The notes beneath the pieces are model-generated. The model searched no databases, was not told where the DNA came from, and saw nothing but the letters and a program-made list of their open reading frames with translations. A program made the translations under genes and the position numbers. From assembly GCA_025980665.1 (NCBI GenBank), contig JAICXC010000057.1, positions 1-32,494 on the forward strand: DNA of 32,494 nucleotides, in the 5' to 3' direction. This DNA comes from Bryobacteraceae bacterium. GTDB taxonomy: Bacteria; Acidobacteriota; Terriglobia; Bryobacterales; Bryobacteraceae. Positions 27,100 to 28,372 of the stretch are shown piece by piece. The first letter of the stretch is position 1. Each line of letters starts with the position of its first letter.

Positions 27100-27108
27100 T
27101 GATACAAT
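27100..27108 (+). promoter_or_regulatory. Extended -10 promoter of the aroF leader
   Basis: TGATACAAT gives an extended -10 (TG-N-TACAAT, hexamer 27103-27108). The expected transcription start is about 27115, at or next to the leader peptide ATG at 27117. No good -35 is visible, which fits an extended -10 promoter. Confidence 0.6.
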
Positions 27109-27116
27109 CGAACTTC

Positions 27117-27173
27117 ATGAATCGCAGTTTTGCTAGCTCGTATCGATTTTGGTTCCGGTATTTTACCGGCTGA
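27117..27173 (+). CDS. aroF leader peptide, rich in aromatic residues
   Basis: An 18-codon open frame encoding [18 protein letters not shown] and a TGA stop. Seven of 18 residues are aromatic (F5, Y9, F11, W12, F13, Y15, F16), covering all three aromatic amino acids and clustered in the last ten codons. The frame lies between a promoter and a leader terminator, upstream of a DAHP synthase gene, exactly the layout of attenuator leader peptides such as those of pheA and trp operons. It has no ribosome binding site; the ATG is within a few nt of the predicted transcript start, so it is probably read as a leaderless message. Its stop codon is 7 nt before the antiterminator arm. A short hairpin (CCGGTA-TTT-TACCGG, 27155-27169) lies within its last codons and could act as a pause site. 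Confidence 0.82.
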
Positions 27174-27179
27174 AGCGGA

Positions 27180-27218
27180 CGAGTGGGCCCATTCGGAATT
27201 TCAAAACGAACCCACTCG
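27180..27218 (+). promoter_or_regulatory. Antiterminator of the aroF attenuator
   Basis: CGAGTGGG (27180-27187) is perfectly complementary to CCCACTCG (27211-27218), the first arm of the leader terminator plus one base. Pairing here excludes the terminator. A ribosome stalled on the aromatic codons (27141-27164) would leave the first arm free; one that reaches the stop codon (27171-27173) would cover it. A weaker alternative pairing of CTCGT (27137-27141) with ACGAG (27179-27183) could sequester the arm when translation does not occur. Confidence 0.75.
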
Positions 27219-27234
27219 AAAGAGTGGGTTTTTT
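27208..27234 (+). terminator. Leader (attenuation) terminator upstream of aroF
   Basis: CCCACTC (27211-27217), tetraloop GAAA, GAGTGGG (27222-27228), then six T (27229-27234). The stem can extend by A-T and G-T pairs at 27208-27210. It lies about 100 nt before the aroF start and within the untranslated part of its transcript, so it must be conditional. Confidence 0.9.
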
Positions 27235-27331
27235 CGTTTCCGCGCACAGCGCCGGGCGCGGACTCATTGCTGGCAGAAAGCTTTCGCGACCGGCTGAGTT
27301 GTGCGCAAAAGAAAATGGGAGGGTGTTTCAA

Positions 27332-28372
27332 ATGATTATCTCCATGCGGCTGCATGCGACTAAGGAGGAGGTGGCTCAGGTGCGCGCGCGTATCGAAGAA
27401 TTCGGCTACAAGGTCCACTCCATTGAAGGGGAGGAGCGCGTGGTGATCGGCGCGATCGGGATGGGTGATGTCACCGCCTGCCTCGAATCGCTTGAGGCCA
27501 TGCCCCAGGTGGAGAAGGCGGTCCGCATTTCTGCCCCGTACAAATTCGTAAGCAAGGAATTTCGACCCGAGAGAACGGAAATCAAAGTAGCGGGTGCCAC
27601 GATCGGCGGTGACGAGTTTGTCGTTATGGCCGGTCCCTGCTCCGTCGAAAGCGAGAAGCAGATCCTGGAATCGGCGGAGATCGTCGCCAAAGGCGGAGCC
27701 AAACTTCTGCGCGGCGGCGCATTCAAGCCTCGGACGTCACCTTACGATTTTCAAGGCCTCGAAGAAGAAGGACTCAAACTGCTGGCGAAGGCTCGCACGC
27801 TGACCGGGCTCGGCATCGTCACCGAAGTGATGAGCGATCGCGATGTGAGTCTGGTCGCCGAGTACGCCGACGTTCTCCAGATCGGCGCGCGCAACATGCA
27901 GAACTTCGCGTTGCTCAAGACCCTGGGCAAGTGCGGCCGACCCATTCTGCTGAAGCGCGGCCTGAGCGCCACCGTCAAGGAACTGCTGATGTCGGCCGAA
28001 TACATCGTGGCTCACGGCAATCCCGATGTGATGCTGTGCGAGCGGGGAATCCGCACCTTTGAGACCGTTACCCGCAACACCTGCGATATCGGAGCGATTG
28101 CTGCGCTGAGCGAGATGACGCATCTGCCTGTGATCCTCGATCCCAGCCATGCGGCCGGTAAGCGCAGTCTGGTGCCCGCCCTGGCGCGAGCCGGAGTCGC
28201 CGTGGGCGCCGACGGTTTGATTGTCGAAATGCATCCGCACCCGGAAAAGGCCGTAAGCGATGGTGCGCAATCGCTCGATCCCAAGCAATTCGCGAAGATG
28301 ATGGCCGATCTGAAACCGTACATCGCCCTGTGGAAGCAGGCCCGCATGGCCGAGACTGCCGCCACAGTCTGA
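27332..28372 (+). CDS. aroF: DAHP synthase (3-deoxy-7-phosphoheptulonate synthase), type I beta
   Basis: A 346-residue enzyme that condenses phosphoenolpyruvate and erythrose 4-phosphate, the first step of aromatic amino acid synthesis. The ATG at 27332 has GGGAGGG 8 nt upstream; the frame extends back through the terminator but that extension is not translated. Residues 1-70 form the ferredoxin-like regulatory domain known from Thermotoga maritima. The barrel holds [26 protein letters not shown] and D-P-S-H-A-A-G-K-R. The metal ligands C103, H273, E299 and D310 fall one residue after their Thermotoga counterparts. The enzyme thus combines likely feedback control by its own domain with control of transcription by the upstream attenuator. 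Confidence 0.96.

Follow-up and report, generated by a model that had tools for sequence, protein, structure and literature searches.

A conserved leader peptide element, probably a four-armed ribosome-mediated transcription attenuator, before the DAHP synthase gene of an acidobacterium

In the stretch of DNA analysed here (the window, 32,494 nt, from a Bryobacteraceae bacterium), the DAHP synthase gene is preceded by an element that is, in all likelihood, a ribosome-mediated transcription attenuator with four RNA arms. This interpretation is supported with high confidence as a reading of the anatomy of the element and of its evolution. Attenuation before DAHP synthase is a known kind of switch, and what appears to be new is an acidobacterial case. 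The parts of the element and of the gene that it would control are as follows.

27100..27108, + strand: extended -10 promoter element TGA TACAAT (TGATACAAT), from the sequence
27117..27173, + strand: leader peptide ORF of 18 codons with its stop codon at 27171-27173, from the sequence
27132..27141, + strand: arm 1, GCTAGCTCGT, within leader codons 6-9, pairing with arm 2 in the minimum free energy fold
27142..27179, + strand: inner hairpin containing the control codons with the stop codon, as well as the 5' flank of arm 2, from folds
27180..27187, + strand: arm 2, CGAGTGGG, the 5' arm of the antiterminator, pairing with arm 3
27209..27234, + strand: intrinsic terminator AACCCACTC-GAAA-GAGTGGGTT with six T, from folding and covariation
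27211..27218, + strand: arm 3, CCCACTCG, common to antiterminator and terminator, from sequence and folding
27317..27323, + strand: GGGAGGG, by sequence a probable ribosome binding site for the gene downstream
27332..28372, + strand: DAHP synthase of the aroF type with a ferredoxin-like regulatory domain, 346 aa, from Pfam and NCBIfam

The protein encoded downstream matches PF00793 (E 1.7e-78) and PF18152 (E 2.7e-17), the latter being its ferredoxin-like regulatory domain, and it exceeds the cut-off of the NCBIfam models TIGR01361 and NF006421. Its start codon is the ATG at 27332; an N-terminal extension of the frame up to 27149 was rejected, because the matches of relatives begin at the same MI(I/V)S and the open frame comprises 348-350 residues in several. 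Since the second PF00793 match in the source genome is named KDO8P synthase by NCBIfam equivalogs and the class II family PF01474 found no match there, the gene at 27332 is the only DAHP synthase detected in this genome, which is 89% complete. Most of the protein's named relatives carry the label Bryobacterales, Bryobacteraceae or Acidobacteria, Bryobacterales being an order in the class Terriglobia of the phylum Acidobacteriota.

The extended -10 element proposed in the initial annotation is present at 27100-27108 and predicts a transcript start at about 27114-27116, which would leave the leader ATG at 27117 nearly leaderless; a promoter scan found no sigma-70-like site with a -35 element. 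Relatives were searched on condition that a TANNNT box stood 4-14 nt ahead of the leader start, and with this condition the box lies 8-14 nt before the start in all 36 retained relatives, the gap being 8-10 nt in 26 of the 36 and 14 nt at most. Such a short gap between -10 box and ATG leaves hardly any space for a ribosome binding site, and leader translation is therefore predicted to be leaderless or nearly so. The initial annotation had also called a leaderless ATG unusual for an attenuator; by sequence the start is indeed almost leaderless, but its rarity has to be qualified, because the leader transcript of trpL-trpE(G) in Sinorhizobium meliloti is described as beginning at the ATG of the leader ORF (PMC7298713). 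That system shares the leaderless start and differs in sensing Trp alone and in belonging to another phylum and another gene. Mycobacterial polycysteine ORFs are likewise named as leaderless leaders in the title of a reference listed in PMC13236596.

Amino acid control codons stand directly upstream of the DAHP synthase gene: as the initial annotation had read it, the 18-codon leader at 27117-27173 carries seven aromatic residues covering Phe, Tyr and Trp (F5, Y9, F11, W12, F13, Y15 and F16). In 60 relatives the leaders have on average 19 residues (range 14-27), of which 34% are aromatic in varying order, and Phe occurs in 60, Trp in 58, Tyr in 57 and all three in 55 of them; these proportions describe a selected set, because all 60 passed a script demanding aromatic residues. 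Among 24 pairs of similar leaders, pN/pS was 0.60 over all codons taken together and 0.29 at the aromatic ones. Both the composition, read within this aromatic-selected set, and the lower pN/pS at aromatic codons bear on the idea that the element is a premature terminator or a growth-rate-dependent attenuator whose leader would do no more than link translation with transcription and would respond to no particular amino acid. Specificity for amino acids is a prediction here, which leaves this idea some room, but together with the His-rich leaders at the his operon of the source genome and its relatives (described below) these data make it very improbable, and we retain the reading as an attenuator specific for aromatic amino acids.

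Arm 2 (27180-27187) is perfectly complementary to arm 3 (27211-27218), as originally noted, and the predicted terminator with its six T was found between the leader and the gene that starts at 27332; its stem and loop span 27209-27230, with arm 4 at 27222-27230 and the T run at 27229-27234. Antiterminator and terminator are mutually exclusive through their common arm 3. What the first reading had overlooked is another arm upstream: leader codons 6-9 and the control-codon stretch fold onto arm 2, giving a protector pairing (1:2) of leader codons with arm 2 that is seen in folds and in the swap test below. Folds from the leader through arm 2 had a mean z of -2.35, with z under -2 in 35 of 60 relatives, and in 55 of 60 at least four of the six core bases of arm 2 pair at least 9 nt upstream, mostly with leader codons. 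Outside the genus, arm 2 in many relatives is GAGTGG-C-GTTGG, whose partner is CCAACCCACTC with one bulged C.

The inner hairpin also bears on the possibility of an arrest peptide, in which a free aromatic amino acid or some other metabolite, and not uncharged tRNA, would be the signal that makes the nascent sequence around R-F-W stall the ribosome. An order of R, then F or Y, then W recurs in many leaders, as an arrest motif would; the conservation of this stretch can also be explained by its nucleotides being paired in the inner hairpin, and the variation of leader length (14-27 residues) and of aromatic order speaks against peptide recognition. We therefore regard an arrest peptide as improbable, and control by the charging of tRNA as the preferred reading.

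From this arrangement we infer leader translation from a leaderless start, ribosome stalling, termination and a response to each amino acid, in the following way. Transcription would start at or just upstream of the leader ATG, and therefore a ribosome could load directly on the 5' end of the RNA. A shortage of charged Phe, Tyr or Trp tRNA would stall the ribosome on codons 5, 9, 11-13, 15 or 16, where it would cover or open arm 1 and leave arm 2 free; arm 2 would then pair with arm 3 before arm 4 exists, the terminator would come too late and DAHP synthase would be transcribed. When Phe, Tyr and Trp are all plentiful, the ribosome would reach the stop codon and cover arm 2, so that arms 3 and 4 would form the terminator and transcription would end 97 nt ahead of the gene.

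A folding model, in which the ribosome footprint was assumed to end 15 nt past the first base of the A-site codon, bears out the geometry claimed at the outset, namely that a ribosome on the aromatic codons leaves 27180-27187 free and one at the stop codon covers it. Before arm 4 is present, the 2:3 pairing has a probability of 0.95-1.0 with the ribosome on codons 2-17, 0.62 at codon 18 and 0.02 at the stop codon; a ribosome at the stop codon thus blocks the antiterminator and one on the control codons does not. Once arm 4 is present, the terminator beats the antiterminator at equilibrium in this model for every ribosome position, and hence read-through would depend on timing. For untranslated RNA before arm 4, equilibrium favours 2:3 (0.96) over 1:2 (0.11), and 1:2 can form earlier than 2:3.

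Statistics on the arms were gathered from 36 of 50 upstream regions of relatives; the 14 dropped, in which the script defined no leader or no terminator, are G004, G027, G028, G031, G033, G038, G040, G042, G043, G044, G046, G047, G053 and G060, of which G047 has an aromatic leader by eye. Neither the 2:3 nor the 1:2 pairing played any part in selecting the 36 regions. When bulges were allowed, the 2:3 duplex outdid its dinucleotide shuffles (p<0.05) in 30 of the 36 and the 1:2 duplex in just 14; in a helix test with mononucleotide shuffles and without bulges, the counts at p<0.05 were 19 and 9. The corresponding 3:4 result (36/36) is circular, because these regions were chosen for having the ORF and the terminator.

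An alignment of 60 sequences combined 33 of the 36 regions with 27 of 39 detector-positive named loci (the detector is described below). Left out of it were L004, L023 and L041 as near-duplicates, L053-L056, L100 and L101 as copies or close kin of included genomes, L080 as a duplicate, L092 and L130-L132 as different elements, and L094, which has a GTG start. In this alignment 98.0% of the terminator cells were paired, compared with at most 54.8% in slid controls, and two-sided changed cells numbered 29 versus 8.7 in shuffles (0/500) and at most 6 in slid controls; the number of terminator pair types was not clearly above shuffles (51/500). For the antiterminator, 81.3% of cells were paired versus at most 46.4% in slid controls, and 29 cells had two-sided changes versus 18.8 in shuffles (4/500). 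Two of its five measures stood at shuffle level, namely pairs with two-sided changes (104/500) and pair types (167/500), and several of the slid controls equalled the real pairing in two-sided changes.

Individual sequences display changes of all three arms that preserve both 2:3 and 3:4: in L087, T-A-T has become C-G-C, in L083, A-T-A has become G-C-G, and G057 has different arms that still form both helices. Other deviations of the arms in relatives preserve just one of the two, and the arm core is nearly fixed, as expected if one arm has to fit two partners. Independently of any alignment, a swap test set the cognate pairing of each arm against pairings with arms taken from genomes less than 60% identical across the element. 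The cognate partner paired better for 1:2 in 39 of 60 (p 4e-4), for the inner hairpin in 41 (p 8e-6), for 2:3 in 44 (p 2e-6) and for 3:4 in 55 (p 1e-10), although neither these values nor the combined shuffle p-values are strict probabilities, because related sequences are not independent. The cognate partner was not better in two control pairings (29/60 and 27/60, p 0.59 and 0.90), and the effects are modest, because 19-53% of distant partners match or beat the cognate one at the median. Compensatory change in the two alternative stems, named in the initial annotation as a check, is thus seen as concerted change in pair counts, three-way changes and the swap test.

The spread of the element was followed with a detector that asks for a short, aromatic-rich ORF and a terminator after it. 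A protein search over the genomes of 61 relatives matched 60, from which the 50 upstream regions were taken, and the detector was positive in 35 of these 50, but in none of 500 shuffles or 50 reverse strands. In the 32-kb source stretch, just one of 286 sliding windows was positive, the attenuator itself, and none of 1,500 other real windows was. Of 80 named loci 39 were positive, 36 among the 49 closest (L053-L101) and 3 among the remaining 31; the detector misses leaders that can be seen by eye in L062, L065, L072, L085 and L095, and also those of G023 and G049. A conserved short aromatic-rich frame upstream of aroF, the other comparison that had been suggested, is thus found in most of the relatives' regions and in 39 of the 80 loci.

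These counts also weigh on the simplest account of the locus, an ordinary terminator of an upstream transcript with a chance frame beside it. Terminator-like sites are common, six having been found in the region where 2.6 were expected; nevertheless, the same succession of ORF and arms is met again ahead of DAHP synthase across Bryobacterales, and the detector was silent in all 1,500 control windows, so that conservation already speaks strongly against this account, to which we assign next to no probability.

A covariance model built from 60 examples gave a full-length match at E <= 1e-5 in 102 of 150 Bryobacterales genomes, a figure that describes spread and is no blind test, because some of these genomes supplied model sequences. 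The 102 are counted without second (his) matches; at E <= 0.01 the tally is 107, of which five are partial. Of 30 inspected matches (L161-L190), 29 have DAHP synthase directly downstream, and the thirtieth lies at a contig end. Over 396 genomes of the phylum the model matched 41, three of them from the source genus, and many of the others are the terminator part alone. Outside the order, L192-L194, three genomes of one family, and L215 (partial) were the matches before DAHP synthase among the loci examined, and homology is not claimed for them. Three genomes of another Acidobacteriota family (L193, L194 and L222, the last being G103:C74) have a short ORF rich in Trp and Phe (MMRNQKADIRITSCANWFWWSWRFAEAAWVSHRPL in L222), which begins 7 nt past a TACAAT box and has a terminator and DAHP synthase downstream. 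Aromatic-rich short ORFs with unrelated terminators also precede DAHP synthase in L130, L131 and L132, two Clostridiales contigs and one Verrucomicrobia contig, and these are possible independent attenuators. Rfam has no family at gathering threshold in the whole window, and 11 loci, the attenuator locus L190 among them, yielded no match to a leader or T-box family up to E = 1.

In 14 of the 50 upstream regions of relatives the script defined no leader or no terminator. One of them, G004 (L008), belongs to the same genus and has kept a -10-like box and a hairpin with a CCCACTC arm but has no leader ORF; the attenuator has likely been lost there. As a separate observation, an inverted repeat ACACC-N10-GGTG stands 86-107 nt before DAHP synthase in 5 of 11 attenuator-less upstream regions (G027, G033, L071, L074 and L077), some of which have a -10-like box near the start codon, and in 4 of 48 other upstream regions, at 150-260 nt. 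This repeat is possibly an operator.

A His-rich leader, MFVARQHSHLRHHHHHHIGARNRAHA, followed by a terminator precedes hisI-hisG in the source genome (G000:C206:5722-5878, - strand; loci L219 and L280) and is likely a second attenuator of this genome, again with a nearly leaderless leader; it was picked up by the covariance model of the DAHP synthase element. A model made from three such sequences matched 27 of 150 Bryobacterales genomes, its three source genomes included, with hisI and hisG just downstream in 26 of the 27 and an adjacent His-rich ORF in 25. The his terminator is better than shuffles (z -5.4), and the full fold of the his leader is not (z -0.23). No comparable aromatic leader was found before trpE (24 places) or pheA (20 places) in 21 genomes, the source genome and close relatives of it, by a script that demanded a -10 box, an ATG start and a terminator within the first 1,600 bases, some of the loci ending at contig ends.

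Elsewhere in the phylum, the loci matched by the covariance model of the DAHP synthase element include putative Tyr/Phe/Trp-rich leaders before trpE (L223, L227) and before a PALP-family gene that we read as trpB (L228). At L224 (G058:C283:4079-4231), a Tyr-rich short ORF, MTSGTAEVTHSYYYGYPYWSRRRGEK, gives a leader with SYYYGYPYW and is followed by a terminator-like hairpin and a gene for a biopterin-dependent aromatic amino acid hydroxylase; a tyrosine-sensing attenuator would be in keeping with this arrangement. Also among these matches, in other Acidobacteriota, L225, L226, L231 and L233 have a short ORF in which Cys codons stand in runs, identified by eye, and a terminator-like hairpin; the downstream gene is of the AhpC/TSA family at L225 (by Pfam) and L226 (by similarity) and encodes PAPS reductase at L233; L231 looks like a twin of L233 and has no Pfam match. 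We would give an even chance to the proposal that Acidobacteriota use almost leaderless leader-peptide attenuation as a general layer of amino acid control, acting on aro, his, trp, cysteine-linked and hydroxylase genes, and that its origin was independent of the proteobacterial and actinobacterial systems or long preceded them.

The trp and phe attenuators of Escherichia coli consist of a leader peptide with control codons, an intrinsic terminator, a competing antiterminator and a 1:2 protector pairing. The element described here has the same anatomy, and differs in having Phe, Tyr and Trp codons in one leader, almost no 5' leader and a position at the first step of the common pathway. Closest in gene context is the aroR leader before aroF of Corynebacterium glutamicum, a published attenuator (Neshat et al. 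2014, as cited in PMC11802643; also predicted in PMC4046766), whose leader holds Phe-Tyr-Phe and for which Phe limitation is reported as effective and Tyr availability as not (PMC11802643). Compared by description, it shares with our element a leader peptide attenuator with aromatic residues before DAHP synthase, but it is actinobacterial and its description gives Phe-Tyr-Phe with no mention of Trp. In Acholeplasma, uORFC-13-1 has been proposed before aroF as a short ORF with one or more Phe codons and an adjacent intrinsic terminator, with 24 unique representatives from Acholeplasma and the environment and a mechanism likewise given as proposed (PMC8632094). By description it too combines a short ORF and a terminator before DAHP synthase, and it differs in its ribosome binding site before the leader and its Phe codon within a U run. 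Classical trp attenuators of actinobacteria carry complementary triples gGCC-rGCy-GGCC in antiterminator and terminator (PMC1262725); conserved triples are also found here (GAGTGG-CCACTC-GAGTGG), with other genes and another triple sequence. Shewanella aroF is listed as 'Attenuator sensing tyr-tRNA', with E. coli work cited (PMC2659441).

For the phylum itself, a 2010 screen states that hardly any of its predicted attenuators from phyla such as Acidobacteria could be given an associated function, and that, until their Firmicutes cases, its authors had known of leader peptide systems in Proteobacteria and Actinobacteria alone, leaving aside the atypical ermC leader; its main text contains neither 'aromatic' nor 'DAHP' (PMC2965389). 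In the accessible literature on Acidobacteria and leader peptide attenuation we found no case before DAHP synthase, and subscription surveys (Vitreschak and colleagues) may hold one. Within this literature the initial annotation, which knew of no description in Acidobacteria, is borne out; attenuation of DAHP synthase as such is already published for C. glutamicum and proposed for Acholeplasma.

What is notable in the present element is the phylum, the three types of aromatic residue, the almost leaderless start and the depth of conservation. The locus supplies a little-studied soil phylum with a conserved case in which every expected part is present, and the his operon of the genome adds a second; with it the origin and spread of ribosome-mediated attenuation become testable. 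Moreover, a natural system is at hand here in which a single leader may combine the signals of three amino acids where their shared pathway begins.
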